Below are positions 17,049 through 51,441 of a DNA stretch of 64,000 nt, one piece after another. This DNA is from Podochytrium sp. JEL0797 (taxonomy: Eukaryota; Chytridiomycota; Chytridiomycetes; Chytridiales; Chytriomycetaceae), in assembly GCA_027596195.1 (NCBI GenBank), contig JADGJG010000004.1:1-64000 (forward strand), given 5' to 3'. A program made the position numbers and the translations under genes. How positions within the stretch are numbered: the first letter of the stretch is position 1; each line of letters opens with the position of its first letter. Below the pieces are notes generated by a model. That model did no database searches. It had not been told where the DNA came from and saw nothing but the letters and a program-made list of their open reading frames with translations.

Positions 17049-20000
17049 CTATTCAGAAACGATATCGCTCCCGTCTTCCAGCGTGCTCAAAAACGCGTCA
17101 ATATTGTGATGCGCGGATCGACTGCGACTCTTGACGCGTTCAATCTCGGCTTGCAGCGCTCTCACATCGGGTTGGCTGTCCAAGTCGGAGGAAGGTACGT
17201 GGTGGGCGGATCTATAGTTCACGCAATATCTTTTCAGTGAAAGATTTTATTTTGCATTGAAAAGGGAGTTAATACCGTGTTGGTGCTTGGCGCAGGGATC
17301 CCGATTCGCGGTTCTCCTTGTATGACCTTTCGCGTTCGAGACGCTCGCGTTCCATGCAGAGACGATCAATCTGTCGTTCTGCAAAATAAAGGAAATCAAT
17401 ATCTTACTGCTCTTCAAGTAATAGCCGTACTCACGCAAATGCTTCTTTTCGACCACAGCCTCCTGCTCACTCTTCATTACCGCGTCCAACCGCCTCGTTA
17501 CGGCATCGCACTTATCCTCCACCCCTTTCAACACCTGCTTCACTTTCTGCGTGTTCCTCCGCTCTGCTTCGACTTCCAACACGACATCCTTCCTCGACTG
17601 TCCCGCCTCCGCAATTTCTTCCTCGAGTAACTTGATCTTTTCATGCCCACGCGTGATTTGAGCGCGCAGGTCGGATATGATGCCGTCGTATCGCGACGTG
17701 AGGGAAGCGGATTCGTGTTTCCATTGGGACGAGAGGGAGTGTTGGGTGGATGTGAGGGCGTGGAGTTCTTGGCAGGTTTTGGTGTGGGTGGAGGAGAGGG
17801 AGGAGAGTTTGGAGTGCAGTTCGGAGAGCTCTGTTTCATGCCTTTGCTGGATGCAGTGCAACTCGGATTCCTTTTGTTTGAGCTTTTGTGAGGTGGTTTC
17901 GTTAAGCTTTTCAGTGTCGTGTTCGAGTTGGGTGAGGTGGGTCATGGATTTGACTGCCGTTTCCTATATAGCCGTTTGAGAAGAAAGTCCGCGCAGATAT
18001 TAAAACGTCAATAACCTTGGCATCTTCGAGGTCTTTTTCGGCACGGCGCAAACGACGGTAAAAATCGTCGACTTGGAACACGAGTTCTTCTTTTTCTTTT
18101 TCGTGACGGTTCTGGTCGCGTGTGAGTTTTTGTTGTAACCTGCGTTGAGTTTTTAATTTTTCAGATCAATGTGAGGAGGAATAGCAGGGGTCACAAACGT
18201 ACGTTCCCAGTGTTTCGAGGTTATCACTCTTTTCCCGTTCCGCCGCACGCAACCTCCCAGCCACTTCTTCAATGATGCCGTTCAAACGTTCCACCTCGTC
18301 CGGGATATGTTTCATCATTTTCTCGAGTTCAGACTCGGCGGCGCGTTTTTCACGCATGGAACGTTCTGCTTGGGCCTTTTTGTTTCGTGTTTTGAATGGA
18401 GTCAACGATTTGGGTGATCTTTTCAACTTTGTGTGTGGCGAACTCACATGGGATTGGGATACTTTCGATTCAAGGTGCGCAATCTCGTCGCCGAGCTTTT
18501 TACGGTCTTGCAAATGCTGCGCTCGCATTCTAAATTGCACATTGTTAGCTGACAGGTTTTTGATAGATACACTCACGTTGCAATCTCCGCCTCCGCCTTT
18601 CCCTTCCACTTCTCCGCCGTCTCCCGATACTTCCCCTCCAACCGTTTCACCTCCTCCACCGCCTGGTGTTCCCTCAACGCGGCTTTATCGCGTTCCAGGA
18701 ACGCCTCGTGGGCTTTCTCTGTTGCGAGGGAGAGGTGGTGCGAGTGTGTCGATTCGGAGGCGAGGAGGTCCTGGTTTCTCTTTTCGAGGGTTTGGAGGAG
18801 GTGTTGGAGGTGTGTGAGGTTGGATTGGAGGGTGGTGGATTCGGTTTTGGTCTCGGTGATGGTGTTGGAGAGGTCTATATGATATCGGAAGTTAAGCGTG
18901 GTTTTACAACGATGCGAAAGGGTTTGAAGGGAACCTTCGTTTTCCAACTCCAATACGCGGATAGTGCTAATTAGTTCCCGCTCACGTCTGGCGCCCTCCT
19001 CTGACTCTTCCACATGCTCTTTATACTGTTCGGTGACCTGATCCAACGCGACTTTGAGTGCCGCGAAACGCGTCTGTTCGGACACGATCGTCTCGCGGGC
19101 GTGGGCGAGTTCGGAATCCAAACGAGCTGTTTCGTTGTTTGCAGACGCAAGATTTTCATGAAGTGTTGTGGCGTGAGAGTTTGCGGCTTCGAGTTGGGAT
19201 TCGACGGAGATTGTGGATTCGGTGAGTTCAGCGATTTTGGATTCAAGCGACGTTTCGGTGGTTCGGAGGGATGTAACTTATATACTAGTTAGAAAACAAG
19301 CTATAACTGTGCGTGTTGTGTGGGATGTGCTTACTTTCTTCTGATTGTTGTTCAATGATTTGGGAAAGTTGTTGAATCCCTTCGGCCCGCGTTTTGTTCT
19401 CTTCGACGAGAACGTCGTTTTCGGTGATAAGGATTTTGATCTTTTGTTGCAGTTTGATCCTGGACGAGGTGGGATCCCATAATCAACAACGCGTTGGTGC
19501 ATAAATGTGGGAGGCAAAAACGGAACAAACCAATCCTCCGAAGGCACCTTCACATAGTTCGCTTCCACCCGTTCAATCATGTCCATTTTTTCCACCAACT
19601 CTGAATTCTCGAGGCGCAATCGGTCAACGACTTCCGTGTGTTCTTGCTGCAGCGCTGCAAGAGATTTGGCTTGATGCGCTGTTTCGAGCTCGAGACGTGC
19701 GTTGCGCTGGGAGAGACGTGTGGTGTCGTGTTGGAGGATTTCTTTGGAGAACTATTTTTTGTTTCGATTTTAGTTGGATTTTTGTTGATCAAGGGAAGAC
19801 GGCTCAGGGCTCACCTCTAGCGTTCCCACTTTCTGCTCCAAATTCAAAATCTCGTGCAGACTCTTTTTGTACTCTTCCACATTGAATTCGGGGACAGGTG
19901 AATGTGATCGTGACGCCGCCATTCGCGTTGGAGACATTTTAAATGGCGGATCGTACTCGTACGGTTCCACGTGTCGAATCGGGGATTCAACTGGAACTTC

Positions 20001-20490
20001 ATATTTCTCAGCGTGTCGCATTTGAGGGGATTTTCGTGGTTCGGGGTGCTCGATCGGGTGGCGGGCGGGTGTGGAGGGTGCGGAGTAGGTTTCGGCGTGG
20101 CGCATTTTCGGGAGAGTGGGAAGCGGGGTGGGGTCTTCGGCGTGGTGGGGTTTAATGTGGTGGTGGTGTGTTGGAGAAGGTTGGGGAGGGGGTAGGTGGT
20201 GGTGGTATGGGTCATGGGATGGGGATCGGAATGATCTGGCGGGGGAGTGTTTGTCTGTGGGGCCACAGTTTTCAGAATTCAGAGTAGATCATTAAGGAGG
20301 ACTCACGAGACGCGTTACTGTTGTTGGCGCCTTCGAGTGCTCTCGCGAGACTCTGGGTCGAGTCGAATTCTCGGTTCGATGGAATTTTGAGATCCGACGC
20401 GTCCGTGGCGTGTGTTGCGTGTTTGGGACCAATGTGGTGTGCGCTGGCGAGGTCGTAGGAAGTTGGGCGCGAGAGGGACGTGGTGGACAT
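17049..20490 (-). CDS. Long coiled-coil protein, 12 exons
   Basis: Exons 20490-20307, 20254-19815, 19751-19531, 19459-19335, 19276-18935, 18874-18577, 18529-18448, 18375-18203, 18139-18016, 17963-17435, 17378-17276 and 17211-17049 join without phase conflict to 927 residues. The first about 200 residues are disordered, rich in Ser/Pro/His, with four MRHAE/RHVEPY-like repeats. The rest is almost continuous heptad coil (for example QQKIKILITENDVLVEENK). The C-terminus is a basic Arg/Ser patch and an acidic tail. The architecture resembles centrosomal or ciliary scaffold proteins, but I cannot name a family. Donors GTTTGT, GTTATT and GTTCCC are weak; the 60-nt intron at 18934-18875 keeps frame if retained. 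Confidence 0.7.
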
Positions 20491-20606
20491 GATTACAAAC
20501 CACGATGAAAAAATTGTCACGCTTTTTTTACAATCTGGGTTGTGAGTCAAATACCAGGCGCGATGAACGAATTTCTCCAAAACAGCAGACGGAAAGTTAA
20601 CGTAAA

Positions 20607-21119
20607 ATGAACGCACTTCCTCTCGAGTTGCGCATGCAGATTGCATCCTGGGTGCACCCTTGCGACATCTCTGCTCTCGGACAAACTGGGTCACTATTCA
20701 AGTTCCTCCTCACCGACACGCCATTCGCCGTCCACCATCTTAAACAGTATTGCAACTACCCGTTCGTGCTACCCGTCTGCCACTTGCCCTTGAATTACGT
20801 TGCCGCGCATGTGATTTTGTTTCAGTCCTTTTCCATGGTCGCAAGGTTCACGCTCACGAGTACACGAAGACGCAAGTTTGCCCTCCCGATTCTCGCGCGT
20901 GTCAAAAACACGGACATGTTTGATTTGATGCAGGCTGAGAACGGGTACGCTTTGAAATGGGGGTGTTCGTGGGGAGATGAGGGGGTTGTGATTCTGTTGT
21001 TGGGGGGTATGGGGTTGTTTGAGATGGTGGCTTCGCGCAATGTGGCGGAGGCGTTTGAGTTGTCGAAGCAGTTTGGGAGACGGAATGTTGTGCTGTTGTT
21101 GAATAAGTTGTTTGTGTGA
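20607..21119 (+). CDS. Small F-box-like protein
   Basis: Intronless, 170 residues. It starts with MNALPLELRMQIASWVHPCD followed by LGQTGSLFKFLL, an F-box-like helix pattern (LPxEhhxxIhxxhxxxDhxxL). The C-terminal half has weak ankyrin-like helices. F-box proteins link substrates to SCF ubiquitin ligases through Skp1. The start lies 117 bp from the divergent coiled-coil gene. Confidence 0.6.
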   Translation: MNALPLELRMQIASWVHPCDISALGQTGSLFKFLLTDTPFAVHHLKQYCNYPFVLPVCHLPLNYVAAHVILFQSFSMVARFTLTSTRRRKFALPILARVKNTDMFDLMQAENGYALKWGCSWGDEGVVILLLGGMGLFEMVASRNVAEAFELSKQFGRRNVVLLLNKLFV

Positions 21120-21253
21120 CGACGGCCGTGTGCGAGCTCGCACAACCCCCCTCCGTAATAAAAATTCAGCCGTGGAGAACGCGTTCAACATCCCTTTATC
21201 CTTTTTTGGAAAGTTCTCTTTTCTTGTCAGCACTCAACTTATTAACGATCAAA

Positions 21254-21745
21254 TGACCATAGTTGACTTGACCCAGCCGGATCACCTGCAGCAGCAAGAC
21301 CCCACAAGCAGCGAGTCTGACTCAGCAAATTGATACCGCACCGCGACACATTCTGCGGCAAGTCCTGCACGCTGTTCGACTGTCATCCTCACGCCGCCGC
21401 CAATTCCTTCTGTCCACGTTCCCCGAGGAGGACCCCTCGACCCACTGCACTGTGTGCCACGAGCTATTCGATCCCGTCTTCAACCACTCCAGGTTGTGCA
21501 AAGTGGAGTCAGAACCGGCCGACGACCAGGAGGACCGCCGCAACTGCTGCTGCGAGTGTTCCAGGTGCGACAGCTGGGTTTGCGAGTGCGGCAAGGTGAT
21601 TTGCGAGATGGACAACGAACACGTGTATTGCTCGATTTACAAGCACAAGGGCGCGACTGCCAGGACTGTGGATAAGTATGAAATTGACAGAAGCCGACAA
21701 TGCAAGGCGTGTTGCGAGATTGCAGGATGGACGTATGAGGAATGA
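21254..21745 (+). pseudogene. Broken copy of the Cys-rich protein gene
   Basis: It is homologous to 22810-23424 through QIDTAPRHIL, CxVCHELFDPVFNH and CCCECSRCDSWVCECGKV. The ATG at 21254 opens a Gln-rich frame that stops at 21331, while the homologous part lies in the +1 frame, so an indel separates the likely start from the Cys-rich domain. The domain itself is open from 21452 (97 codons), so a shorter product is possible. Confidence 0.6.
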
Positions 21746-21913
21746 TTGGGCGCTGTTGTTGAAATTTGCGCGTCGGTTCTGATCGAAAAAGAAGCACGAG
21801 TATTTGACGCGTTTCACATACTACAAACACTTAATCTGTCAAACAAATTACAATAAAAAGAGGAAGGAAAAGGAAGGAGAGAAAAAATAAACAAAATCAG
21901 CGGATGCAGGGCG

Positions 21914-22638
21914 CAGGGGCGGACCGCAGGCCAAAAAATCGCCAGGCCAATCCCGCCACCGGAGGCAACACCCCCCCCCCTCCCCCACCACCACCAAAGC
22001 CCTGTCCAAAATTTTGAGGAAATAATTTATTCGTTGTTGTCCTTTCCTGTTTTCAACTCATAGCTTATAGCCGAATCGAAAAAACCTGTCTTCGCCGTTT
22101 TTCCCCGATTTCAAAAAACTTCGAGAGAAAAATAAATACCCCCCCCTTAATTTTCTGCCCGCACGTGCCAGCCAACCCATGCACACCACCACCCTCGCGC
22201 TCCATCCCCTTCTCAATCACCGTGACTAATCAATACTCATTTAATTATTCCTTCCAAACCCCATCACTCAGAAGCCCATAGCGACAACGACACCATCAAT
22301 TTTTGGGCGTCCTCTTCTCAATTCAGATACCCGAATGACGAAGATACCGCCCCCTCTCCTCGTCTCGACGATCACGATCAAGAAGACTACTTTGCCTACG
22401 TCGGCGATGACGAGGAGTAAGGGTTGGATCTGCTGAGCAGATTGGCGAGGACCTGCGACGACGTTCGATTATAAAAGGGTCGAAGTGTGACTTTCACCTC
22501 TCCACGAAAGAAGTGCTATTTTTACAGTGCAACAAAAATATGGAGGGACCAAACACCCATCCCACCAGGCCTGCCTATACCTGAGTCCTGAAAATCACTA
22601 GGCCAACCCTATTTGGCTTAAGGGACGGTCCGCCCCTG
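21914..22638. mobile_element. Non-autonomous hAT-type DNA transposon (MITE), complete
   Basis: The element is 725 bp with perfect 13-bp terminal inverted repeats (caggggcggaccg at 21914-21926; exact complement at 22626-22638). It is flanked by an exact 8-bp target duplication gcagggcg (21906-21913 and 22639-22646). 8-bp duplications and CAGGGGCGG-type ends are characteristic of the hAT superfamily. There is no transposase. Inside, 22272-22421 reads as an acidic 3'-terminal exon (preceded by ctcag, ending GDDEE-stop), possibly captured from a gene or left from the transposase. Confidence 0.88.
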
Positions 22639-22809
22639 GCAGGGCGCGATCAACTGCCCGCTGCCAGATCCAACCGTGGTACCTTCATCTATAAGTGGAC
22701 CTCAACAAGCACACATGGATGTTCACACCACACATAAGCATTCACAATGACTCTTTCCGGCCAACTTAAGGATCCGTGATACCAAATTTTATAAAAAAAC
22801 TAACGCGCA

Positions 22810-23424
22810 ATGAATCAATTCAACGAAGATGAAATGTACATCGCTCTGAACCAGCCTTACTACCCGCAGCAGCAGCAGCAGCAAGACCAGCAGCACCAGC
22901 AGCCCCCAAGCCGCGAGGCCTCCGAAAACGCGCGTCTGATAGAACAAATTGATACCGCACCGCATCACATTCTGCAGCAAGTCCTGCACGCGGTGCGCTT
23001 GTCTTCTTCGGGTCGCCGCCAATTTCTTGCGGCTGCGTTCCCCGACGAGAACCCTTCGTCGCACTGCGTTGTGTGCCACCAGCAATTCGACCCGGCCTTC
23101 AACCACGCCACGGCGTGCAAAATGGAGGCAGAACCGGCGGACGACCAGACGTGCCGCCGCAACTGCTACTGCGAGTGTTCCAGCTGCGACAGCTGGGTTT
23201 GTCGGTGTGGCAAAGTGGTTTGTGAGTTTGAGGAAGACGAACACCAATATTGCTCGATTGACGCGCACAAGAGCGCGACCGCTAGCACTGTGCAGAAGTA
23301 TTCATACGAAAGTGACAGTGGCGGCGAATGCAAGGCGTGTTGCCAGATTGCGGGATGGCCGTATGAGGCGGAGGGTGACGGGGGGGATGTCGTTCCGCCA
23401 TTTAAGTATGTGCTCGAGTACTGA
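22810..23424 (+). CDS. Cys-rich putative zinc-binding protein, unrecognised family
   Basis: Intronless, 204 residues. The N-terminus is Gln-rich (CAG repeats); then a helical segment IDTAPHHILQQVLHAVRL and a Cys-rich core with CVVCHQQF, CRRNCYCECSSCDSWVCRCG, a CSIDAH and a final ECKACCQIAGW. The spacing suggests two or three bound metals. A broken paralogue lies 1 kb upstream, across the hAT element. AATAAA-like signals follow near 23478. The function is unknown. Confidence 0.65.
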   Translation: MNQFNEDEMYIALNQPYYPQQQQQQDQQHQQPPSREASENARLIEQIDTAPHHILQQVLHAVRLSSSGRRQFLAAAFPDENPSSHCVVCHQQFDPAFNHATACKMEAEPADDQTCRRNCYCECSSCDSWVCRCGKVVCEFEEDEHQYCSIDAHKSATASTVQKYSYESDSGGECKACCQIAGWPYEAEGDGGDVVPPFKYVLEY

Positions 23425-23905
23425 TTCCTCTTTTTTGCTGTGAACTCTTGCACGGAATATGAACAATTTTTTAACATAATAAACCTTTAAATTCAAATGA
23501 AGTCGCCAACACGAGTTGTCCGAGAATTGCTTGGATTTTTCACACCTGGAAAATTGAATCTTAACACCAGGAAGGGGGGGACGGAATCGCCCTCCTTAGA
23601 CAGAGTGTAGTGTATAAAGTAGTTCGGCGGGTGACTCCTCGTCAGCCGCCTCCGCCCCCTTGTCCTCCGAAACCGCTTCCAGCTCGACCAATTGAACGAA
23701 AAAGTGCAGATAAAGATTACTTAATTGCCTTTTTAATTTCCTCTATCCATGGAAAAAGTATAGCGTTTTCTTTTCCTGTTTTGTAATCGGCAGTCATCAA
23801 AGAGTCAGAATTGCCGTCGTGTTTCGAACCCTTTCCCACGAGCTGAGAAATCAAATTGAAAATTTCACTTGGCAACTCCCGCAACGGAAGAAAGAAACAA
23901 CGCAA
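23425..23905. other. Intergenic
   Basis: This is the 3' flank of the Cys-rich gene and 5' flank of the first array member. A GTG at 23819 opens the array frame 29 codons early, but the ATG at 23906 is preferred. Confidence 0.5.
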
Positions 23906-24799
23906 ATGATACCGCCACTTTCGACTGAACGGCGCCGCTCGTTCTCGGCCACCTCGGTCACCTCCACTCGCAGCCACTTCTTCAAACGGATGTTTAAGCT
24001 CTTGACTGGCCGCAACAATGACTTGGCGGGCGAGGCACCGCAGCGCTCACCGGGTGTTTCTCCGGACGAGATCAGTGCCTTGGGCAGCACTTCTTCCATG
24101 GACCCATTGTCCACCCACAAAGAGTCGCTGGGTCGCCCCGCCAAAGTGGCTCCCGAGAGTGGAGATGCGGAGGAGGGTGGAGATTTTACGAGTGGAACCC
24201 ACGCGACCTCCCAAGCCAACCTTCTCAAAACAAACCTCGAGTCCATCCAACGCGACCTCGAACACGTTGCCGAGCACCAGCAACTGCGCATCATGGAAAT
24301 GTCTACGGAAATGTCGAGCAAAATTATTTTGAACCCCAACCCAACCGGCCTGTCACCAGCCCCGAGCATCAAACACCGTTCCAAGAGTGTTTCTAGCGTT
24401 TTTAGCGTGGAATCGACTCCGAAACTCTCTACCTCCAGTTCCCACTTTTCAACTCCCGAATCCACATCCCTCCGGAGCGCCATGTCTCTTCCAAGTCTCG
24501 ACTCTCGAACTGAACACGAATACCTGCTTTTACTCGAAGAACAAGGCCGCTCCCCGCTTCCGATACGAAACGGACTCTTTCGTCCACAAACTGCTTCCTT
24601 AAGTCCCACCCCGCGAATTCACCTTTCCAAAAAGATGCTCGAGGACAGTGAAAAGTCCGTGTTGGCGGTTCATCTTGGGGACGGGTATCCGGATGCCAGT
24701 GCTCTTTTGGTGGATTCGCAAAGTGGGCGTTTGTTGTTGCCCAGTGAAGCCAAGACTCTGGGTCTTGGGCGTGGTGGTTGTGACGACACCAATGTTTAG
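23906..24799 (+). CDS. Tandem family member 1 (GYPDxS family)
   Basis: Intronless, 297 residues. Family blocks in order: basic N-terminal RRRSF...FKRMFKLLTGR; LLKTNLESIQRDLEHVAEH; a Ser-rich linker; EHEYLLLLEEQGRSPLP; and the C-terminal signature LSKKMLEDSEKSVLAVHLGD then GYPDASALLVDSQSG and LLLPSE. It has no signal peptide or membrane helix and is mostly low complexity with many Ser/Thr-Pro sites. No known domain is recognised. Confidence 0.7.
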   Translation: MIPPLSTERRRSFSATSVTSTRSHFFKRMFKLLTGRNNDLAGEAPQRSPGVSPDEISALGSTSSMDPLSTHKESLGRPAKVAPESGDAEEGGDFTSGTHATSQANLLKTNLESIQRDLEHVAEHQQLRIMEMSTEMSSKIILNPNPTGLSPAPSIKHRSKSVSSVFSVESTPKLSTSSSHFSTPESTSLRSAMSLPSLDSRTEHEYLLLLEEQGRSPLPIRNGLFRPQTASLSPTPRIHLSKKMLEDSEKSVLAVHLGDGYPDASALLVDSQSGRLLLPSEAKTLGLGRGGCDDTNV

Positions 24800-25200
24800 C
24801 TGCTCTATTTTTTTCAATGTTCCTTTTGGCATTTTGTTTTTTGCATTTTAGACTTTAATAATACAGATTGACTCGGGAGAAAGATTCAATCGTAAAAAAG
24901 TGCGCTAGGTTCCCAAAACTCTGAGTGGTGCACATGGTGCTTAAAGTTAATAACGGGGACCTACCTTTCATCCTCCTTTGAGACCTCCCAAATAAACCAA
25001 CCAGATGACTAATTTCAATTAATGAAATAATTTTGTTCATTTATCGCACTCGTTTCCACTCCTTCCTTCCTGGAAGAAGAAAGTCTTCTATCGACGCTTC
25101 TTATTGCTACTTGTTTGCCAGACCAGCTTGGTTCACGGTGTCTTATCTATTAATTCATGTTCGTAATTGTTGTCGATGAATGAAAAGTTCATGAAAATTC

Positions 25201-26067
25201 ATGCCGAACACACCAACTTCCAGCCAACGGCGGCGACGCAGCCTCAACATGTCCAAAGTGCTCAGCTTTCTGACTGGACGCAAATCTTCGTCCAACGACA
25301 GCGAATCCGCGAGCCCCACCTCCATTCTTGATTCACTATCCCCGATCCATTCCATGCCGACTATTCCCAAGTTCTCCTCCTCTTCCTCGAGCGAATCCTC
25401 TGGTGGCTCCTCCTCCGCTTCCTCGCGGCACCACAAACTCACGTCCACCTCGTCCGACACCTCCCATCAAAGATTGACCGAACGCATCCTACCGACCATC
25501 AAGAGCGTTCCTTCCTCTCCTCATCCTTCTATTCCACCCATTGAATCCCTCATCGCCCCACGTCCCATCACCCCTCGTAAAAACGCTCCACCGCCACCCT
25601 TCTCGCCGAGCTCGGCACCCTCCCTGACCAAAAAGGCCAGCACACGATCCCTCCGCAACACGGGCCGCCGCAGTCAGTCCTCCAACAGAACCAGCGGCAG
25701 TGCACCCGAATCTACCGACGGCAGCACACCTGAGGAATCCACGCGCTCCTCGCCCAGTCATACCCTCGCCAAAAGGTCCGTGAGCGTCGATGCGCAGGAA
25801 GCTGAACGCGAGTATCTTGCCTTGTTGGAGGACCAGCGTGGACGAATTAGACCTCTGATGGCTGCTGCGGATGGAAAGTTGTCCAAGGAGTTGGTGGAGG
25901 AGGCAGGAAAGAGTTTGTTGACGATGCGGTTGGGGGAGGGATATCCTGATACGAGTCTGTTGTTGGTGGGGTGTGGGGTCAATTTGTTTTTGCGTAGTGA
26001 GTGGGATGGGGTGTGGGGGGGTGGGGTGATTCGAGATGATGGGGGACGGAAGGATTCGGATCATTGA
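25201..26067 (+). CDS. Tandem family member 2 (GYPDxS family)
   Basis: Intronless, 288 residues, ATG at 25201. It has RRRRSLNMSKVLSFLTGRKS at the N-terminus, a Pro-rich KNAPPPPFSPSSAPS block, SVDAQEAEREYLALLEDQ and KELVEEAGKSLLTMRLGEGY-PDTSLLLV. Downstream of LLLV the usual LLLPSE end is replaced by a Gly-rich tail. Nucleotide identity with member 3 is very high from about 25575 to 25970, so these two are a recent duplication or are being homogenised. Confidence 0.7.
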   Translation: MPNTPTSSQRRRRSLNMSKVLSFLTGRKSSSNDSESASPTSILDSLSPIHSMPTIPKFSSSSSSESSGGSSSASSRHHKLTSTSSDTSHQRLTERILPTIKSVPSSPHPSIPPIESLIAPRPITPRKNAPPPPFSPSSAPSLTKKASTRSLRNTGRRSQSSNRTSGSAPESTDGSTPEESTRSSPSHTLAKRSVSVDAQEAEREYLALLEDQRGRIRPLMAAADGKLSKELVEEAGKSLLTMRLGEGYPDTSLLLVGCGVNLFLRSEWDGVWGGGVIRDDGGRKDSDH

Positions 26068-26454
26068 TTTCAGCGCTTTTAAACATATAAATAATAACCT
26101 AATTTATTAAAAGTTAGATTAAGACTGGTAGCGCTGATTCATTGAAATTGACTCGCGTAACAATGGGGGAATTTCCTGCTAATTCGACGCCACTTGCACC
26201 CAGCCGATTCATATTGCCTTATTTATAACAGCGAAAAAGAATAGGATGATTTATTTAGAGTTGTGCCTCGTGAGAGGGTGTGGGGTACTGAAACGCGGGG
26301 AATATTTTTTCCACAATTGAGCTCAATCAATTCATCAATAAACTTATTGAGGAGTAAATGTATATATACAGTAATAGCGTACTTTCTTCAATCCGTGGAA
26401 CAAAAAGCACTCTGCTCTAATAAATTGGCACTTGTGCGACCTCACGAGGGTGAT

Positions 26455-27090
26455 ATGCAGAACGAAACCAAGGCGACGACCTCTGGTCAACGGCGACGCA
26501 GCCTCAACATGTCTCAAGTGCTCAACTTCCTGACTGGACGCAAATCTTCGTCCAACGACAGTGAATCCGAGCTTCCGTCCTCCTCCACCATTACCCCCCT
26601 ACATCGAACGCCCGAACACGCAGTTCCTGCACCACGCATCGAGCCCCTCGTCGCCCCGCGATCTATCCTCCCCCGCAAAAACGCTCCACCGCCACCCTTC
26701 TCGCCGAGCTCGGCACCCTCCCTCACCAAAAAGGCCAGCACACGATCCCTCCGCAATACTGGCCGCCGCAGTCAATCCTCCAACAGGACAAGCAGCAGTG
26801 GACCTGAATCCACAGACGGGAGTACTCCAGGGGAATCCACGCGTTCATCACCCAGTCATTCCCTCGCCAACCGATCCGTGAGTGTCGATGCGCAAGAAGC
26901 TGAACGAGAGTATCTTGCCCTCTTGGAGGAACAGAGTGGCCGGATTCGACCCCTCAAGGCCGCTGCGGATGGAAAATTGTCCAAGGAGTTGGTGGAGGAG
27001 GCAGGAAAGAGTTTGTTGACGATGCGGTTGGGGGAGGGATATCCTGATACGAGTCTGTTGCAGGTGGGCAGAGCAATTTCAAATGATTGA
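26455..27090 (+). CDS. Tandem family member 3 (GYPDxS family), C-terminally shortened
   Basis: Intronless, 211 residues from the ATG at 26455; the frame is open upstream to 26263 but without a better start. It shares almost all blocks with member 2 (RRRSLNMSQVLNFLTGRKS, KNAPPPPFSPSSAPS, EAEREYLALLEEQ, GEGYPDTSLLQV). It stops soon after the signature, lacking the LLLPSE end, and lacks about 60 residues of the Ser-rich linker. Confidence 0.65.
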   Translation: MQNETKATTSGQRRRSLNMSQVLNFLTGRKSSSNDSESELPSSSTITPLHRTPEHAVPAPRIEPLVAPRSILPRKNAPPPPFSPSSAPSLTKKASTRSLRNTGRRSQSSNRTSSSGPESTDGSTPGESTRSSPSHSLANRSVSVDAQEAEREYLALLEEQSGRIRPLKAAADGKLSKELVEEAGKSLLTMRLGEGYPDTSLLQVGRAISND

Positions 27091-28038
27091 ACTGAAGTTT
27101 GCAATTCTTGATGGGAAACAAAAACGATGGCGCCAAAAGGCGAGACAACCTGCTTTTTTTTGGATCAGAAAAGGTGGATGAATGCCAACCCATCCCGCGT
27201 GATGTCATTTCACTTTCAGAAACGCGCTCACAGGGGCAGGGGAGGAGGGGGGAAGTTGGAGGGGAGGGGGTGAAGGGGTGGTCAGTTTGGAACAGAAAGA
27301 ACGCCACTTGACAGGAAACTGAAGCGGCACCAGCAGCATCATGAATGGACTTCTTTTTGGAACGAAAGCAATTAAAGATGTGTGTGAAATTTTCAAGGGG
27401 GTGTAGGAAAAACAAACGGTTGCCTTGTCAACCGAAAACTCCCATCTCACTTCTCGTCAAGCCATGCCGCCGTAAAAAAGGGCGGCCCCGCCTTTCTACA
27501 ACGGCTAATCCTCACTTTCGTTCTTAAAACCCGCCGGTTTCACCATTGTGTGAATGTCGAGGAAGATGGGGGGCATATTTCTGCATGAATAAAATACGGC
27601 GGGCCTCTTCCAAATGCATTGTTCCATCCGCGTCTGGGGCTTCAAACAATGGCGATTCTGACATTCTTGAAACTCTCCCACCTGGCCAGCGGGGGGATTT
27701 CAGTTTTGACTGGCGAGCCTGCGAACGTTGGTGATTCATGCAACACCGGGTCAAATCCGCGAGGAAGGGGGAGAGAGGGGTAGATTTGAGATTCCCGTGT
27801 ATTACGCATGGATTCAGTTCTTACAGATAAAGAATTTTGGTTAGTCTCAAGCGAATGACAAAGTAGCCGCCTTAACTATTGATTGGATGAAAAGAAGGGT
27901 CGAAATTCTATTTTTTTTCATTATCAAATTCATTGGCGCATTGCATTTGACAGAGAACGTTCCCAGACACATTCCCCTCACACGACTGCTCCATCAACGC
28001 TACAGCAGTAGTGTTTTCTGAAAGGGAATTCGTTTTTC
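27091..28038. other. Intergenic, 948 bp, no gene seen
   Basis: No supported gene, repeat or family remnant. ORFs here are short, lack family motifs and overlap on both strands. Confidence 0.5.
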
Positions 28039-29109
28039 ATGTCGACTCGAACACCGACGGTGGCAAGCCGAGACACCACACTCACATCCCTCAGAAAGAC
28101 CTTCAAAGATCTGATGTCCAAACTCAGCATATCCCCGAAAGCGAAACTGCCCTCGGAGGCACAGCCACCCGTCACCACCGCGTCTCCTCCTCCACCGAAA
28201 CCGCGGCGCGACCTTCCCGACATCACTTCGACCTCACTCGACCTCCGTCGCAGCGCGTCTGCCTCTGCCTCTGCCTCTGACTCGCGGTCCTCTGTGTCTG
28301 TGGAAGCGATGCCGCGCTTCGACGACGACGGGTTCCCCATCGCACCGCCGCGCCTCGACATTCTGAAGGCGAATTTGAAGTCGATTCAGAAGGAGATGAA
28401 GTCGATTGCGAATAAGCAGCAGCGCAAGATTTCGTTGGAGGAACGAGACGTTGTTTTTTCGTTGGTGCCACAGTCTTCGGATGCGATAAGAATCAAGGCA
28501 AACCACCGCAAAAGCTCCTCAACTGCTCCTCCAGAAACACGAGCTCCGTCCATCGACTCGAGTACCCACGAATCCGCCAGCTCCCACACAAGCTCCGCAC
28601 GTCTCGTCAAACGCTCCAAACACGTCAACGTCAAAGCAGAGCAAGAATATTTGGCCCTTCTTGCCCACTTGGGCATGATCCCGAAACCGTTGCCGAACCG
28701 GTCGGCCGTTCTGAGATCTCCTTCATCCATCTTGGACGGAACAACGACCCCACCCATTAGTGTGGCACGTGCGTCTCCAGTAGCCCCCATGCTCCCGATA
28801 CTAGATCCAGTTGAATCCATATCTGAAATCAGCTCTCCGAGTGCCATCATACCCCCCATCCCACCGAAACGATGGAAGGGCGACGATCAGTCCACGTCTC
28901 CATCCATCCACTCGCCAAAGGCCTCACCAATCCGTTTCTCAAAACAGATGATGGAGGAGACGCAAAAGAGTGTGCTGTCGATGCAGTTGGGTGATGGGTA
29001 TCCTGATACGAGTGCGTTGGTTGTAGATGGTCAGGGGAGACTATTGTTGCCGAGTGAGAGGAGGAGGAATGTGAGCACTAGAAAGGCGACTCCACCGCTT
29101 TTAATATAA
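28039..29109 (+). CDS. Tandem family member 4 (GYPDxS family)
   Basis: Intronless, 356 residues. It has LTSLRKTFKDLMSKLS at the N-terminus, DILKANLKSIQKEMKSIANK (matching member 1), KAEQEYLALLAHLG, and the C-terminal IRFSKQMMEETQKSVLSMQL, GDGYPDTSALVVDGQGRLLL, PSE. It is closer to member 1 than to 2 and 3, so the array has two subfamilies arranged 1-2-3-4. Confidence 0.7.
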   Translation: MSTRTPTVASRDTTLTSLRKTFKDLMSKLSISPKAKLPSEAQPPVTTASPPPPKPRRDLPDITSTSLDLRRSASASASASDSRSSVSVEAMPRFDDDGFPIAPPRLDILKANLKSIQKEMKSIANKQQRKISLEERDVVFSLVPQSSDAIRIKANHRKSSSTAPPETRAPSIDSSTHESASSHTSSARLVKRSKHVNVKAEQEYLALLAHLGMIPKPLPNRSAVLRSPSSILDGTTTPPISVARASPVAPMLPILDPVESISEISSPSAIIPPIPPKRWKGDDQSTSPSIHSPKASPIRFSKQMMEETQKSVLSMQLGDGYPDTSALVVDGQGRLLLPSERRRNVSTRKATPPLLI

Positions 29110-29546
29110 ATAAATTAATCGGATGGAGTTTAAAAAAATTAACATCCAGCGCGTAATCTGGCAACCTTCCCGCGTTGACGGCAACCTTTCACTCCAAAGT
29201 GTTGACCAAAAGCCTTTTTTGATGATGTGGAGGACGGAGAGATCGAAGCGAATAGGTAGGTTGGATACAAAATGGGGATGAGCTTCGAAATCCGCAGCGA
29301 AACCGCGAACCCGAGCACGCGACGCGACTTGATGACCGCGTTTGTTCATTCCGATAAAGGAGACAGAAGTATGTGGTCATTTTTTGCGGACATAAATAAA
29401 CGCATTATATAAAAACACGCGATAAAAAAGAACACGAAAACCAATTGTTTTTTTTGGACAATAAACAGTATCACTACACGAGCAGAGAGAGCACCCCAAC
29501 ACCTCCCCATCCCTTCGAAAAACAAAGAAAGCCAAACACCCCCTCT
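29110..29546. other. Intergenic, convergent 3' ends
   Basis: This 437-bp spacer lies between the last array gene and the 3' end of EPL1; AT-rich, no gene seen. Confidence 0.5.
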
Positions 29547-32500
29547 CTACCCATTCAACGCACCCAACATTCCCCCCTCCCCACCACCACCACCAACCCC
29601 CGCACCCCCACCCTCCCCCTTCACCTGCTGCTGCTGCTGCTGCTGAACCTGCATCTGCTGCTGCAACTGCGCCTGCGCCTGAATCTGCTGCATCTGCAAC
29701 TGCATAAACTGCTGCTGAGTCACCTGCTGCTGCTGATGCTGCTGCAACTTTTGCCGCATCAACATGTTGTAATTAAACTGCTGCAACTGATGCTGCGTCA
29801 CTGTAGTCCCATTCGGGAACGAGTACGTCCCATTCCCATTCGGAGTCGGAATCACCATCCCCGCCGCCGCAGCCGCAAGCTGTTGCTGAGCACTCGCATT
29901 CCCAGCCGCACTCCCCACCGCCGCCGGCGCCGGCGCCGCCGCCACACCCCCTCCCGCAGCAGCAGCCCCCTGCGATGCCACAAGCGCAACCCGTAACCGA
30001 TGCTGCTGATTCACAAAATGCTGCTGCATCTGCGGACTCATTGGCTGCGGTTGACTCTGCATCGTCTGTTGCAACTGTCTCATCATCATCACAATCTGCG
30101 CTTGCGACGGGATCGGTTGTTGTTGTTGTTGCTGCCGGGACGCGGCGGCGATCATTTGTTGTTGTTGGTGTTGGAGGTATGCCATTTGAGCGGCGGGGGA
30201 TGCGTTGGGTGGGATGCCGCCTCCTGCACTGGGAACGAGAGCGGCGGGGCCTACGGCGGGGGACTGGCTGCCTCCAGGGACGGGCTCCCCCGCAGCCAAA
30301 GCAGCCGCCGCCGCAGCTGCCTTCTGCTGGTTCTGCACCGCCTCCTTCTTGCTCTCTTCCAACATGTTGCGGAGCCGTTGTTCCTTCTCGGAGAGCACGG
30401 GGAGTGGTTTCTTTGGCGGTTTCGTTGCGGACGCTTTCTTTTTCGGCGCGGCCGCCGCCGCGGCGGGTGTAGCGGGATCTCCACCAGGAAGCACAGGGAC
30501 AACAGCCCCACCCATCCCTGCACGAACAATTTCGTATTGAATGAGTGGCGGTGGTCGTGGAACAGACGCGTCGAATGGAGCGCAAGGTTTCGGGTTCAAT
30601 TGATCCGGGTAGGTTGGTTTCGTGAGGAGGTGGTTGATGTCGTCCGAGTTTGGGGAGAGGTGGAAGGACCGGAATGCCATGTTGCTGATGGATGGGGGGT
30701 GGAGAGCGTTAGCGCGGCGTGCAATGCAACAAATAAAACAAAACTCAACTGAATCGTATCCTCCATCTCCACAGCCACTCCACCCACTTCCTCATCCCAC
30801 TCTTCCAGTCCCAATTTTCTCCGTACGTCGTCCCCGGGCCTCCGCAAGAGATCGAAGCGCCGCCGGTCAAAACACAACCTCCCACCGCGTCCAATCCTTC
30901 GCCGCGCGTACGGTATTGTCGTTGGTGGAGGTGATAAAGGAGCTTTGGAAGTGCAAATGGGTTTGGTGGGAGTCACAAGAGATGCTGAAGAGGATGCTGG
31001 AGGGGGGACGGAGGAACTAGATAAGGTGGTGGAGAGGTGAGAGAAAGGATTTGACTGCGCGGGAGGAGTCGGGAGAGAAGAGGGGTAGAGGGTTGATGCA
31101 GAGAGTTCGGGCTGCCAGAATTGGGAGCCGGGGGGTCCGGAGGGAGGGATGTATGGGTTCTTTTGTTGATCATGTCAGTCAACACACAACATGCAAATAC
31201 ACACGGCAAACGGGTTACCTCAGTCAAATCAACGTATCCAGCCGTTTCGTCTTCAATCCGCCGTTTTTTGATTTGCTCGAGAATCTTGGTGTCCTCCGAC
31301 ACGGGTCCTTCACCAGGAGATTTGAGTTCCAACATATTTTCCATGCTCGGATTGCGGAGTTTGATTTTGATGGCAGAAGGTCTGTGAAAGTAGACATTGC
31401 GCGTGTGAGATAAAAATCGCACTCAAGACTATCGAAAAAAACAAACCTAGTCTCCTCCCTCCTCTTCCTCTTCTTATTCTCATCCGCCACACTCCCGCCA
31501 CTCCCTTCCACGACCCCAAACGCCCGCTTCAACCTCCGTACCAAACACCGCTTCTCGAAAAACGCCGTATCCATCGCCAACAACTCCCGTCGCGTTTCCT
31601 CGCGCGCACCAACGTGATCCAACAAGTCCCGCACGGCGAGTAAATCCGCATGCAACTTTTTGAGTTTGTCCAAGGAGGCATTGTCAACCCGTTTCGTGTG
31701 CTTCCGGTTCGGCCGCAGATCGCGTTTCCGGAAACAAATGTACGGGTCCGCGTCGTCTTGCTTAGGGTTGTGCGACAACTCGTCGACACGGAGTGGGGGG
31801 TGGATGGGTCGACCCGGGTTCATGTTGGTGGTTTGGAAGCGGGGGGTATCGTATCGGCGGTGGGACCAGTGGGAGAATACTTTGGAGAAGGAGAGGGCCG
31901 GGAGGGCGAGGGTGGGTTCGTTGAGGAGGATCCAGGAGATGGATTCTTGTTCGGTTGGGTTGGATCCGATTCCGAGCTGGTTTGGGAATTTTTGGGTTAG
32001 ATGCGATGATGTAAGGAGATGATGCATCGGTGATGCACTGATTTCACTTGCTCGCTTCGCTCGCTCTTCTTTCTACACGGCCTTCGCACGTGATTTGCTC
32101 GTTCTTTTCTTCCTTCCATGCGCTGCGCGCGTCGCGCACCATGAGCCGTGAGCCGTGAGATCTTGCTCGCTACGCTCGCTCGAAACTCTCACTCTCGCTC
32201 AGACAATCCGACTCACCCTCTCATTCCCAAACCGCTCCAACACAGACATGCACTCCTCAAACTGATCCTCATTCAAGACGACTTCCGCCTCCCCTTCATC
32301 CACGACCATCGCGTCCACCTCTCCTTGCCCTACCTGCCCCTGCTTCGCGGCCTTCGCGTCCACCTCCCGCTTCCACTCTTCCAAAAACGCGTCATCCACA
32401 AGATCCAAGCAATACGAGGATCCAACGTAATCGTCCATTTGGGCACTGAATTTGACATAATGCTTGGGAATCACATAATCATGCGTGTAGTAGCGGTCGT

Positions 32501-32829
32501 AGTCGGTAAATTTCTGGGAAGCATCGGGAACGGGAATGTTGACGGATTTGTTGGAGGTTCCGGCGTGGTTTGCGTCAAGGGCAGCTCGTAAGTGATGTTC
32601 CTAATGGTTATTTTAATTTATTTGTTTTTTCATTTTTTGTTTGTGTGTGGGCTGAACCACGGAAGGAAAGGAAGGGGTGACTCACATCCTCCTCCTCCTT
32701 GTCCACACCAGTTTTGATGTTTTTGACAGTTTTCGCCAGCGACACATTCTCGTCCAGGTCCTCGCACTCGCTGAAGCGAAAGACGGCGAATTTGCGCTTG
32801 AAATCGACTTTGCGCGAGCGAAGCGCCAT
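29547..32829 (-). CDS. EPL1: Enhancer of polycomb-like protein 1 (NuA4 subunit)
   Basis: Exons 32829-32686, 32600-32217, 31976-31447, 31381-31219, 31159-30750 and 30684-29547 give 922 residues with consistent phases. The N-terminal EPcA domain starts MALRSRKVDFKRKFAVFR; VNIPVPDASQKFTDYDRYY and HYVKFSAQMDDYVGSSYCLD follow. The hallmark DADPYICFRKRDLRPNRK and a helical RRTDNxSLxKL-type block (KRVDNASLDKLKKLHADL) are in exon 3. Exon 5 has RRRIGRGGRLCFDRR, and exon 6 is a Gln/Ala-rich tail of about 370 residues. EPL1 bridges the Piccolo histone acetyltransferase module to NuA4. Intron 2 (240 nt) is full of gctcgct-type repeats. Confidence 0.88.
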
Positions 32830-32860
32830 TTGTAATCAAACTAAAAACAATTCGCTAAAA

Positions 32861-33436
32861 ATGCGGGGACAGTTGGGCCGTGTTCTGCAGTGCGGTGCGA
32901 GCAAGGTTCAGTTGGTCTCCGCGGGTTTGGACAGTGCCGGAAGGGTGGTGTCAGGGGGCGGGTGGCTGGATTGTCCCAGGTGCAAAATGTGGAAAAAATG
33001 CAAAAATCACATTCAAACAACCAATGCCCTTTCTTTTCTTTTCAATGTACTCCATTATTAGCGTATCAGTACGAGGTTGTGTGAGTGTGCTCTGTTTTAA
33101 TCGATTAGTAGAAGAATGAACAAAAATCGCGAAACAGAAAAATTTTCACCTGGGGCCATGCCACTCGAAGAAACAACATCTGGAATCTCCCTCGTGTGGA
33201 GGCCAGAGAGGCTTCGGATGATCACCAGCGAGATGCCGACATGTCTGGTTAGACGTCTTGGCGGTGGAGACGAGTTGGGGAAGATTGGAGGCATTCGAAA
33301 CACTCGGATGGCTCCTTGTCAACACACGTTGGTTGTCGCGAGGAAGGTGGCGGAACTGCGGTTGGACATGATCGTGGTGGGTTGGTGGTGCGGTATTAAA
33401 GGGTACCCTCGCACTTTGTGGCTGGGGATGAAGTGA
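32861..33436 (+). other. Uncertain small ORFs divergent from EPL1
   Basis: An ATG at 32861, 31 bp from the EPL1 start, opens 66 codons (MRGQLGRVLQCGASKVQLVS...) and a second ORF of 106 codons runs 33116-33436. Neither shows a known motif, and I could not join them by splicing. They may be a short spliced gene or non-coding. The rest of the spacer to 33555 holds nothing else. Confidence 0.25.
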
Positions 33437-33555: not shown

Positions 33556-34389
33556 TCAATAATCATACTCCTCCTCATTCACACTCCCCTTCCCCTCCCA
33601 CACATCCATCCATTCCTTCCGCGACCTCCGTTTCCCCTCCCCCTCCAATTCCTCACCCCCAACCTCATCAAAATACCGCTCCTGCGCCTCCCGCATCACA
33701 TCCTCATAATCATCCAACCCTTCATCCCCATCCACCGCTTCGTAATCGAAAAATTCGGATTCAAGGCCATCCAGAAACCGTTCCTTCATGATGCGCATCA
33801 ATTCTTGCCTCATTTCGAGTCTCGTTTCCGGGGAATTCGATTCTTGGTTGGAATAGTTGATCTGGGAAGCCACTCGTTCAATCGACACGGACTCCAGCGA
33901 CGCATCGATGCGTTTTTGAATAACCCTCCGCCGCCTCGCATCTTCATAAAATTGCCTCCCTTCTTCGTCATCCGAATCAAACTCTTGCACAGGCTCCTCG
34001 TCTTCGTCCCCATCCCCGCCGTGTTCCACCTCCGCACTCCGCCCAAACCCATTCACTCGCTCCACAAACTCCCTCTCATCGATATCATAATACATCCTTT
34101 CCACAAGCGTCACAGACCCTGCGAACGGGGCGCTTCGTTCCACGGGGGGTGTGAGTTGAGTGATGTAGTGGTCGAAAAGGTGGGGGCATCTTTGGCGGAT
34201 GGAGGCGTCGCTGAAAAAGGAGTCTGGGTCGAGTGAGGTGCTGGTCTGGGTCGGGTGTGAGGGGTTGGAGGGGGCGAAGAGGCGGGTGAGGTGGGCGAAA
34301 CGGCGGTTTCGTTTGGTTTGTTCGTCGGGTGGATTCATTATTTTTTTCGAATTCCAACTGAGAGGAGAAACAGAATGGAAGTCATTCAT
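33556..34389 (-). CDS. CCDC97 homologue
   Basis: Intronless, 277 residues (an internal Met at 34338 is an alternative start). The C-terminal half shows the CCDC97 pattern: RQRCPHLFDHYITQLT in the middle and MKERFLDGLESEFFDYEAVD then DEGLDDYEDVMREAQERYFD, matching the family signature MxxRFLxGxDxxFFDYxxVD...YDD. CCDC97 proteins associate with the SF3B part of the spliceosome. A long acidic stretch (GGDGDEDEEPVQEFDSDDEE) lies between. Confidence 0.75.
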   Translation of the reverse strand: MNDFHSVSPLSWNSKKIMNPPDEQTKRNRRFAHLTRLFAPSNPSHPTQTSTSLDPDSFFSDASIRQRCPHLFDHYITQLTPPVERSAPFAGSVTLVERMYYDIDEREFVERVNGFGRSAEVEHGGDGDEDEEPVQEFDSDDEEGRQFYEDARRRRVIQKRIDASLESVSIERVASQINYSNQESNSPETRLEMRQELMRIMKERFLDGLESEFFDYEAVDGDEGLDDYEDVMREAQERYFDEVGGEELEGEGKRRSRKEWMDVWEGKGSVNEEEYDY

Positions 34390-42764: not shown

Positions 42765-44774
42765 TTATTTTTTCCTGCCCTTGCTCACGTCTTCCATCAC
42801 TTCTTTTTTAAAATTCACCCAATTGTGGCGTTCAATATACAGTTTCTGAATGCACGCAGTGTTTTCAAATTCTGCCTCCAGCTGCAATTGTCCATCCGCA
42901 ATTGTCCTCACGAGCTCGGGAAACGCAATCAGGGTTTTCGAAAATGCATGTCGATTGATAGCTATGTACTTTACCCTCGATGCTGACGTGATGGAGAATT
43001 TGGACCTCAAATCACTTGTGTCCATCACAGTTTGAATCAGCGCCACTTGCGCCGGCGTCCCAACACTTGCGAGAGCCGCTGCTGCCCCGTAATAGCCTCC
43101 CTCGATGTATCCAACATGAACCAGGTTTGTGACAATGTTCATGCCGTGGTGTGTGTTGATCTTGGAGTCGGGGGTGGGTGGGTGTGGGTGCAAGTTGAAT
43201 CGATCGTTAAAGCTGGAGGTTTTGACTTTGGTGAACTGGATGCATTTCGAAAGAGAGCATTTGCCTTCGCTGCTCTTTCATGTTAAAAGAGGATCGCTCG
43301 CAAGAATGCCTCACCAAAACAAATAGACGAAGGGAGGCACACCACCTTCCGATAGAATATGCGAGTTTGCAGGTACTTCAATCAGCTGTGATGTGAATGC
43401 CAAATGATTAACAGCCTCACGACCGAGCCTCGCAAAAAACGGAATCCTCGCAATATACTGAAACCGCTCCTTCATTGTCTGAATCGCTTCCGACTTCAGC
43501 ACATCTTCAAAATCTTCACGGGAAATCCACAAGAGTTCCGTATCTTTGCTCGTGATTACAGTCGCGTGGCGGCGAACGTTGGGACCCCCCATCAACGCCA
43601 ATTCACCAAACGTCTGACCGGCTTCCAGAACTGAAACGAGACTATTCGTTTTTTCAAGCTGAACGTAAATCTCGACTTGTCCTGTCAGGATGAAATAAAA
43701 GTTGCTTGCAACGTGGCCTTGTTTAAGAATCGTTGTTGCCGACCAAAACTTGGAATATTCAACTTTGCGGCCGAGCTCCTGCTTCCTCAGTTGGCTATAA
43801 CTTGAATATCCTGGCAAAGCTTTCATCATCACTTCAAGCAGCTGCAAATCGGCATTTGTGCGTTTCTCTGGCGGTTTCATGACCACTGCGACGATTCTCT
43901 CACCTCCACCCACTTTCGCGGCTTTGAACGCGGCCAGGTTGAACTTGAACCGCTCAGTTGATTCCTCATGCGTACTTTGGCTTGTGTGAATCGCATTTAA
44001 TATACGTGTGTTTTGGAGTTGTTTGACGCTGCGGACCACGTGGATCACTTGGCGAATGGCTTGCTTCCATCGGTTGAATGCTCGAGTCGGATTCTTTGGA
44101 GCTCGATGCTCGACTTTTGGTGGAGATACAGGAAGTTCTCCGGGTGAAGCCACCCAGCTTTTGCGTGATTTGAGAACATCGTGATGTAAGATTGCTTCGT
44201 CGATTTCTTGTGCGAAGCTGATACGTGATTTCAAACGTGTGGTGTGGATTGGACCCAAACGCGTTGGCCGGCGTGACGTTTTCGATGGAGGAATTGTGGT
44301 TGATTCGGGAACAGGTTGGAGACGTGAAGTGGGACAACGTGAATCATGAAATGGAGTAGTCGAATGTTGAACAGTTTCAACCGATTTTTGACCAAGTTGG
44401 CGACGCAAAATGGAATAATGAGAATCTATCGGAGTAATCGTTCCCTTAGAATTTGGTTGAAAGTTGAGGGAGCCATATATGGGATTCGGTTGGTGCTTCA
44501 GAGTTTTGAGGTCAATGAGTGATTTGCTCGCCAGTTTCACGTTGGAGTTAATCTTCACGCCACTGCTCGGGGCTGGGTTCTTTGAAATCATTGCATTGAA
44601 AAGCGCAAGTTGCTTGGAATATATTCTCCTTCTTGCGTCCGATGAGGGAGTCGTGTTGGTGAAATTTTTGCCGTCCAAGAGAATCATTGATTTTGATTTT
44701 TGGGAAGGAGTTCCGTTGGAAGCTGTGACTCCATTATTGAGATTCGTGATTGATGGGAGGGTGACGGAGCTCAT
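42765..44774 (-). CDS. Protein with two tandem cyclic-nucleotide-binding-like domains (copy A)
   Basis: Exons 44774-43315 and 43269-42765 give 654 residues. The first about 290 residues are basic and disordered. The first CNB domain has FWSATTILKQGHVASNFYFI and the phosphate-binding-cassette-like FGELALMGGPNVRRHATVIT. The second starts FARLGREAVNHLAFTSQLIE and continues across the intron with GGYYGAAAALASVG, which lacks the GE...R of a functional cassette. It is not fused to a kinase or channel. The promoter and first 60 per cent of the gene are duplicated, inverted, at 59921-61593. Confidence 0.75.
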
Positions 44775-45292
44775 TTCCAGTATGGTTCTTTGTTGCGAAG
44801 AACAGGGAACCGCCCATTGTTCGCATTCATCATTTCATAATTAAACCTGACGAGCCAATTATTACTACATTTCTAACCGCTAATTATATCGCGATTATAA
44901 AAGCAACGAATGTTCATTTTTCACTACTATTTTTTTATTTTTCTATTTTTTTGGGGATAAGATTCATGAGAAGAGAAGAAAAGAAGAGAAACTTCCAACA
45001 CAACCACAGTCCATCAACATTCGCCACTAACCCCACTACCCATTTAGAACCAGAAACTGGCCCATATCAGACGATTCCAACACTGGCAGATCCAAGAAGG
45101 ACCTATTAGAGCCGGAACGACTTGACAAGGTAGAGAGGCTGACCGAGAACCACAGGTGGGACCAAGGAAGCCCCAGGCACGTTACTCGGATAGTGGCGAT
45201 TGCTGACGTGTAAGACTGCGTTGCGAAACCTGACCCCAACAAAAACCCCCCGGTTCACGCCGACCCCAAACTATTCCGCCAGAAATCACTTC
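43685..45292. repeat. Source arm of a large inverted duplication
   Basis: The minus strand from 45292 to about 43685 matches the plus strand of 59921-61593: about 515 bp of 5' flank plus the 5' part of the CNB gene. Landmarks are gttcacgccgacccc (45253), ggatagtggcgattgctgac (45188), gacttgacaagg (45119) and the gene start at 44774. Confidence 0.8.
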
Positions 45293-51295: not shown

Positions 51296-51441
51296 GTTGT
51301 TGTGACAGGACTGGGTGATTAATCTGTTAGGTGCAAGAGACGTTGTTTGTAAATCGAATGTAAATCAGTTGTGGATCAACGCGATCGACCCTTGGTTGCG
51401 ATTTTCTCATCGTGTCCGCCAAAGAAAAAACACAAAAACCA

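Follow-up and report, generated by a model that had tools for sequence, protein, structure and literature searches.

The window analysed in this study (64,000 nucleotides, positions 1 to 64,000 of contig JADGJG010000004.1 from Podochytrium sp. JEL0797) contains an array of four intact ATG-to-stop open reading frames (ORFs) on the forward strand, designated M1, M2, M3, and M4. The genus Podochytrium belongs to the Chytriomycetaceae in the Chytridiales. A sequence-only reading had described the four as same-strand paralogues, and all four frames were found. When the genome of this organism was searched in six frames (24.4 Mb, 995 contigs) with M4, M1, and M2 as queries, M4 recovered M1 (expectation value (E) of the best piece, 4.2e-11), M2 (4.1e-5), and M3 (3.1e-4), all within the array, and M2 matched M3 at an E of 4.0e-76. 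The weakest best piece was that between M1 and M3 (E of 1.7e-3). In addition, M1–M4 can be aligned across the common blocks. This similarity is beyond chance: the array is genuine, and the four members are paralogues. They look like real genes under selection.

No further convincing copy was found among the matches listed in the assembly for these three queries. An origin as transposon-borne copies is not supported, the convincing members being confined to the array. Weaker matches were given by the M1 query in C90 (E of 0.39) and by the M2 query in C230 (E of 0.36) and C209 (E of 0.81); the M2 query also matched C294 (E of 2.5e-4, 31% identity), where the aligned stretch is Ser-rich and has three internal stops. 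All of these are taken as Ser-rich chance matches. A DNA search with positions 20000–33000 gave no second array copy among the matches listed, by a method that skips common words and missed the window itself.

M4 is identical to HDU98_007532 (Podochytrium sp. JEL0797) over 95% of the M4 length. The N-terminus of the deposited M4 model (P0001) is MTK in place of MSTRTPTVASRDTTLTSLR, which could reflect a spliced first exon. The M4 start used here is supported because P0002, a near copy of M4 (83% identity over 67% of M4), agrees with the unspliced frame at its start. Likewise, the M1 start is supported because P0012 (93% identical over 100% of M1) begins at the same position; a shorter deposited model of the M1 of the window also turned up in the profile search described below. 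P0012 and P0002 lie on contigs of 5.4 kb and 1.6 kb, respectively, which were deposited for the same strain, and neither was found in the 24.4 Mb assembly by the own-genome searches. They are candidates for a second haplotype or a second array. The four genes appear intronless, as judged from open frames and not from transcripts. The further claim that nearly every conserved neighbour is split was not confirmed: in the CCD97-like neighbour at 33556–34389, profile positions 11–196 of 197 are inside one open frame, so that this gene is unsplit over its domain.

Block anatomy and predicted structure

In most of the 13 aligned sequences from the family, the blocks follow one order, beginning with an amphipathic basic helix (LKGFLxKL type) and continuing with an LxxxLxxIxxxLxxIxxxQ helix that has the 4-3 spacing typical of a coiled coil, an EYLxLLEEQGR helix, and a C-terminal block with the consensus SKKLLEExEKxVLxxxLGEGYPDTSxLLVGEGGRLLLPSE. 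M1 and M4 contain the whole set: the N-terminal helix, the coiled coil of four heptads, the EYLxLL helix, and a C-terminal module that includes GYPD and RLLLPSE. Disordered Ser/Thr/Pro-rich linkers separate these blocks. By pattern search, the coiled coil is missing from M2 and M3. This agrees with the sequence-only reading, in which an LKxNLxSIQ helix had been assigned to M1 and M4; that helix is present in these two and absent from the other two. Two other claims need correction. The N-terminal block of the RRRSLNMSxVLxFLTGR type or a variant of it, given there to all members, does not extend in this form to M4, which is without RRRS and LTGR and carries RKTFKDLMSKL, a version of its own. 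The LLLPSE motif, said to be in some members, is found in M1 and M4 at the end of RLLLPSE; it is altered to LFLRSE in M2 and is missing from M3.

Two patterns, both written after the alignment had been seen, were examined in a set of 17 sequences, in which some genes are represented more than once, by near copies or by alternative models. All but M2 and M3 (15 of the 17) match the heptad pattern, vs 5 of 34000 shuffles. LG[DE]GYP[DN]x[ST]xL occurs in all four window members and in 16 of 17 overall, the miss being the partial sequence P0002. Amphipathicity of the N-terminal helix was tested in 11 sequences, the other six being excluded because they are near copies or alternative models. The shuffle p, uncorrected, was below 0.05 in six of them, 0.054–0.082 in three, and 0.72–0.77 in M2 and M3.

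AlphaFold2 models of two query sequences have five helices in the same order. The block mean of the predicted local distance difference test score (pLDDT) is above 90 for the long helix and about 81–82 for the EY helix, and residues scoring below 50 number 199 of 329 in one model and 151 of 297 in the other. The alignment and the two models thus agree with the claim of short conserved blocks around disordered linkers. Furthermore, in six close pairs of sequences, all 96 internal gap columns fall within linkers. A coiled coil of four heptads is predicted for the central block, a small helix/hairpin/helix module for the C-terminal one, and an amphipathic basic helix for the N-terminal one.

Divergence of M2 and M3 and the surrounding locus

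M2 and M3 are identical at 167 of 209 aligned residues. As the sequence-only reading had noted, they share a Pro-rich block of near-identical DNA, which was evident in the DNA repeat comparison. By the Nei–Gojobori (NG86) method, the nonsynonymous (dN) and synonymous (dS) divergences are 0.142 and 0.515. The dN/dS ratio is 0.28 (bootstrap, 0.18–0.38), and therefore indicates purifying selection; a ratio near 1 had been named beforehand as part of a possible refutation, which this value does not provide. The ratio is 0.17 (0.07–0.33) from M2 codon 126 onward, in the conserved half, and 0.08 (0.03–0.18) over M2 codons 126–226 (101 codons).

In the 30 codons after M2 codon 226, there are 28 degenerate codons that specify the same residue in M2 and M3, and none of them differs between the two genes. 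When the silent differences were permuted 20000 times, such a run was reached in 0.3% of cases. The simplest explanation of this tract is gene conversion, which is considered probable; selection on DNA or uneven mutation are possible alternatives. Of duplication or gene conversion, the two origins proposed for this pair, the run of silent codons supports duplication with probable conversion.

It is also possible, if somewhat doubtful, that M1 (perhaps also M4) works and that M2 and M3 are decaying tandem duplicates degenerating toward pseudogenes. The absence of the coiled coil from both, the stop before RLLLPSE in M3, and the altered tail of M2 are as expected from decay, and divergence can be masked by gene conversion. 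However, both frames are intact, and the dN/dS values given above, in particular that over M2 codons 126–226, are against it.

The composition of third codon positions changes along these genes. By thirds, C is 0.49, 0.48, and 0.08 and G is 0.20, 0.15, and 0.51 in M2; the values in M3 are 0.41, 0.47, and 0.14 for C and 0.21, 0.13, and 0.42 for G. Third-position C also drops along M1 (to 0.24) and M4 (to 0.18), with little rise of G.

Table 1. Members of the array and their blocks (positions in the window)
Feature	Position	Strand	Basis and remarks
M1	23906..24799	+	ORF; 297 amino acids (aa), full architecture
M1 basic amphipathic N-terminal helix FFKRMFKLL	23978..24004	+	hydrophobic moment 0.51, shuffle p 0.028 (uncorrected); helix in model, low to middling confidence
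M1 four-heptad coiled coil (predicted)	24221..24295	+	heptad pattern; block mean pLDDT up to 94
M1 EYLLLLEEQGR helix	24512..24565	+	alignment; helix in model, block mean pLDDT 82
M1 C-terminal module LGDGYPDASALLV...GRLLLPSE	24620..24766	+	alignment; in model, helix, two-residue strand pair, short helix, middling confidence
M2	25201..26067	+	ORF, pattern search; 288 aa, no coiled coil, LLLPSE altered
M2 basic N-terminal block LNMSKVLSFLTGRK	25243..25284	+	alignment; amphipathicity not above shuffles (p 0.77)
M2 Pro-rich block RKNAPPPPFSP...	25576..25695	+	DNA repeat with M3
M2 EYLALLEDQRGR block	25804..25857	+	alignment
M2 C-terminal module	25876..26022	+	alignment
Probable gene-conversion tract, M2 side	25879..25968	+	28/28 degenerate same-residue codons identical, permutation p 0.003
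M3	26455..27090	+	ORF, pattern search; 211 aa, no coiled coil, stop before RLLLPSE
M3 basic N-terminal block LNMSQVLNFLTGRK	26503..26544	+	alignment
M3 Pro-rich block	26674..26793	+	DNA repeat with M2
M3 EYLALLEEQSGR block	26902..26955	+	alignment
M3 truncated C-terminal module	26974..27087	+	alignment; probable conversion tract at 26977-27066
M4	28039..29109	+	ORF; 356 aa, full architecture, Pro-rich linkers; deposited as HDU98_007532 with different N-terminus
M4 amphipathic N-terminal helix LRKTFKDLMSKL	28090..28125	+	hydrophobic moment 0.57, shuffle p 0.006 (uncorrected)
M4 coiled coil (predicted)	28360..28434	+	heptad pattern
M4 EYLALLAHLG block	28639..28692	+	alignment
M4 C-terminal module LGDGYPDTSALVV...GRLLLPSE	28933..29079	+	alignment

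Directly upstream of the array is another tandem pair, at 21299–21742 and 22810–23424, made up of an intact frame for a Cys-rich protein of 204 aa and a copy of it. The two show 66–68% identity over about 150 residues and are the only two among the matches listed in the assembly; the intact protein has no Pfam match. The locus seems to be prone to tandem duplication. Between the Cys-rich copies (21914–22638) are short dispersed repeats with 70–95% identity to six other contigs. On the minus strand, two frames at 43314–44834 and 49382–51364 contain cyclic-nucleotide-binding domains, and positions 6014–6766 match glycosyl hydrolase family 46 (E of 8.1e-16), the family of chitosanases.

Possible function and comparison with known systems

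Because no homologue of known function was found, we infer membrane binding, dimerisation, and docking alike from the anatomy of the proteins. A docking or scaffold role, as put forward in the sequence-only reading, is plausible for these putative adaptors. Tentatively, and as a possibility more than an expectation, the family may be small, mostly disordered, membrane-tethered dimeric adaptors with a C-terminal docking module, of which M2 and M3 would be shortened variants. The N-terminal amphipathic basic helix would hold the protein on an anionic membrane, and the coiled coil would dimerise it. The C-terminal module, together with the EYLxLL helix, would dock a partner at a reach set by the Ser/Thr/Pro-rich linkers, which might be phosphorylated. 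M2 and M3, having no coiled coil and an altered or missing hairpin, might then compete with or modulate M1 and M4 as non-dimerising variants.

Several observations weigh against this model, the lack of a homologue of known function among them. The N-terminal helix of M2 and M3 is no better than shuffles in amphipathicity. The C-terminal module reaches a block pLDDT of only about 51–76, and its hairpin is barely formed: one model shows a strand pair of two residues, the other just one bridge. In the Chytriomyces sequences of the alignment, conservation of the EY block is poor. In addition, the contrast in substitutions between blocks (27/524) and linkers (130/1275), summed over the six close pairs, is significant singly in one of the six and is illustrative, since the blocks were picked for their conservation.

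A more specific proposal, which must be regarded as speculative and rather unlikely, is that these are membrane-tethered coiled-coil adaptors specific to the Chytriomycetaceae, whose tandem duplicates lost both the dimerisation helix and the docking hairpin but remained subject to purifying selection and gene conversion. They would have become natural monomeric antagonists of their parents, perhaps in rhizoid or zoospore morphogenesis. If coil-less copies do antagonise their full-length counterparts, the array would show in compact form how regulation can evolve through loss of a dimerisation helix.

Alternatively, the Pro-rich linkers might be the working part, in an SH3-ligand scaffold for polarity or actin control. 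M4 has four class II SH3-type matches (two of which overlap) vs 0.7 expected, a number reached in none of 300 shuffles, and KNAPPPP is present in M2 and M3. However, a single low p is weak when 11 motif types are tried on 11 sequences, and M2 and M3 have no more KNAPPPP-type matches than shuffled sequences would give (p of 0.06 and 0.21). No SH3-type match is present in M1 or P0012, and the partial M4 copy P0002 retains PIAPPR but not PPKPRR. The other genera have from zero to three such matches with no common site apparent. This explanation is improbable.

The adaptor model aside, the claim that the family is unrecognised is borne out by the database searches, with no Pfam match below an E of 0.009 and no PDB match below 0.01. 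No clear match to a known domain, which had been named as a possible refutation, was found in Pfam, PDB sequences, or Foldseek. Full-length scans of 13 members against Pfam listed 15 families at E up to 10, with filters that drop most matches above 0.1 and with curated cut-offs given for the first member only. RhlB (E of 0.0091), BAT2_N (0.015), DUF4545 (0.034), and MenC_N (0.046) each matched one of the 13, and the syntaxin-6 N-terminal domain matched two (best E of 0.086), the other families being weaker. These are taken as chance or generic-helix matches, as are the best PDB matches of the 13-sequence profile, Gcf1p (0.068) and apolipophorin (0.42), and those of the C-terminal block, 2o34 (0.51), a DUF2807 protein (1.4), and histone H2B (1.4, via RLLLPGE). 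A splicing-factor 3A1/SF1 chain found with a 4-sequence profile (0.012) was not listed with the 13-sequence one and is regarded in the same way.

Three likenesses to known systems fell short of significance. Foldseek gave zero and one matches up to an E of 10 for the two models; in the single one, 21 columns of the M1 model are paired with the plectin repeats of periplakin at an E of 9.7, and no significant sequence or fold match to this repeat was obtained. EYLALLEEQxGR resembles the start of the GoLoco motif, but the D/E-Q-R triad of that motif at its usual spacing appears to be missing, and GoLoco is not among the 15 Pfam families listed. The AbrB/MraZ swapped-hairpin fold has two β-hairpins around a helix, and the GRLxLPxE look of the module resembles its motif. 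That the proteins are nuclear or chromatin-associated, with the GRLLLPSE hairpin-helix as a derived AbrB/MraZ-like element, is very unlikely: a Pfam MraZ match in one of eight C-terminal blocks and the order of hairpin, Pro, and helix point that way, but the match is not significant (E of 0.13), MraZ is not among the listed families for full-length proteins, the model has at most one hairpin, and the proteins presumably end too early for a second.

Besides Podochytrium, four genera yielded homologues: Siphonaria, Obelidium, Rhizoclosmatium, and Chytriomyces. With residues 193–300 of the Siphonaria protein as the query, 10 proteins were obtained to an E of 10 among 62 candidates: two from Siphonaria, one from Obelidium, three each from Rhizoclosmatium and Chytriomyces, and M4. 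The first search and the profile search scored just the 7992 candidates sharing most words. The profile search gave six proteins, of which P0012 and the shorter M1 model had not been retrieved before, and missed most relatives found with the Siphonaria query; that query in turn omitted the Podochytrium M1 proteins. Recall is low because each search omitted relatives found by the other. All matches are within the Chytriomycetaceae, and at this recall the lack of a homologue outside this clade is weak evidence of absence.

In a tree of 15 proteins, from which P0001 and P0013 were excluded as alternative models of M4 and M1, respectively, the forks between genera, and those among M1, M2/M3, and M4, are mostly without resolution. 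The grouping of the six Podochytrium rows into one clade was neither shown nor rejected (p of 0.20 in the approximately unbiased test). An expansion within Podochytrium is plausible. No publication on the family was seen among the matches listed in the titles and abstract beginnings searched, and BCR33DRAFT, BDR26DRAFT, HDU98, and JEL0797 are in no paper of that literature. In the text available, one paper mentions 'Podochytrium sp', a review of chytrids on diatoms (PMC10643281).

Block order and motifs like those of the window members are present in hypothetical proteins of Obelidium (BDR26DRAFT_856474), Rhizoclosmatium (BCR33DRAFT_770074), Chytriomyces (HDU78_010972), and Siphonaria (HDU68_010499). 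The window members show 28–36% identity to the Obelidium protein. When the comparison is limited to the final 108 residues of the Siphonaria protein, the other genera are 37–65% identical to it, and M4 is 48% identical over half of this region. At low recall, each species record of the other genera yielded one or two proteins, and Podochytrium alone showed the four-gene array and the coil-less type of M2 and M3. Within the reach of these searches, the sequences point to an undescribed family of an ordinary kind: apparently lineage-restricted, tandemly duplicated, disordered coiled-coil proteins. The present analysis provides an anatomy and a motif (LGxGYPDTSxLL...GRLLLPSE) for proteins of an early-diverging fungal group that databases list merely as hypothetical.

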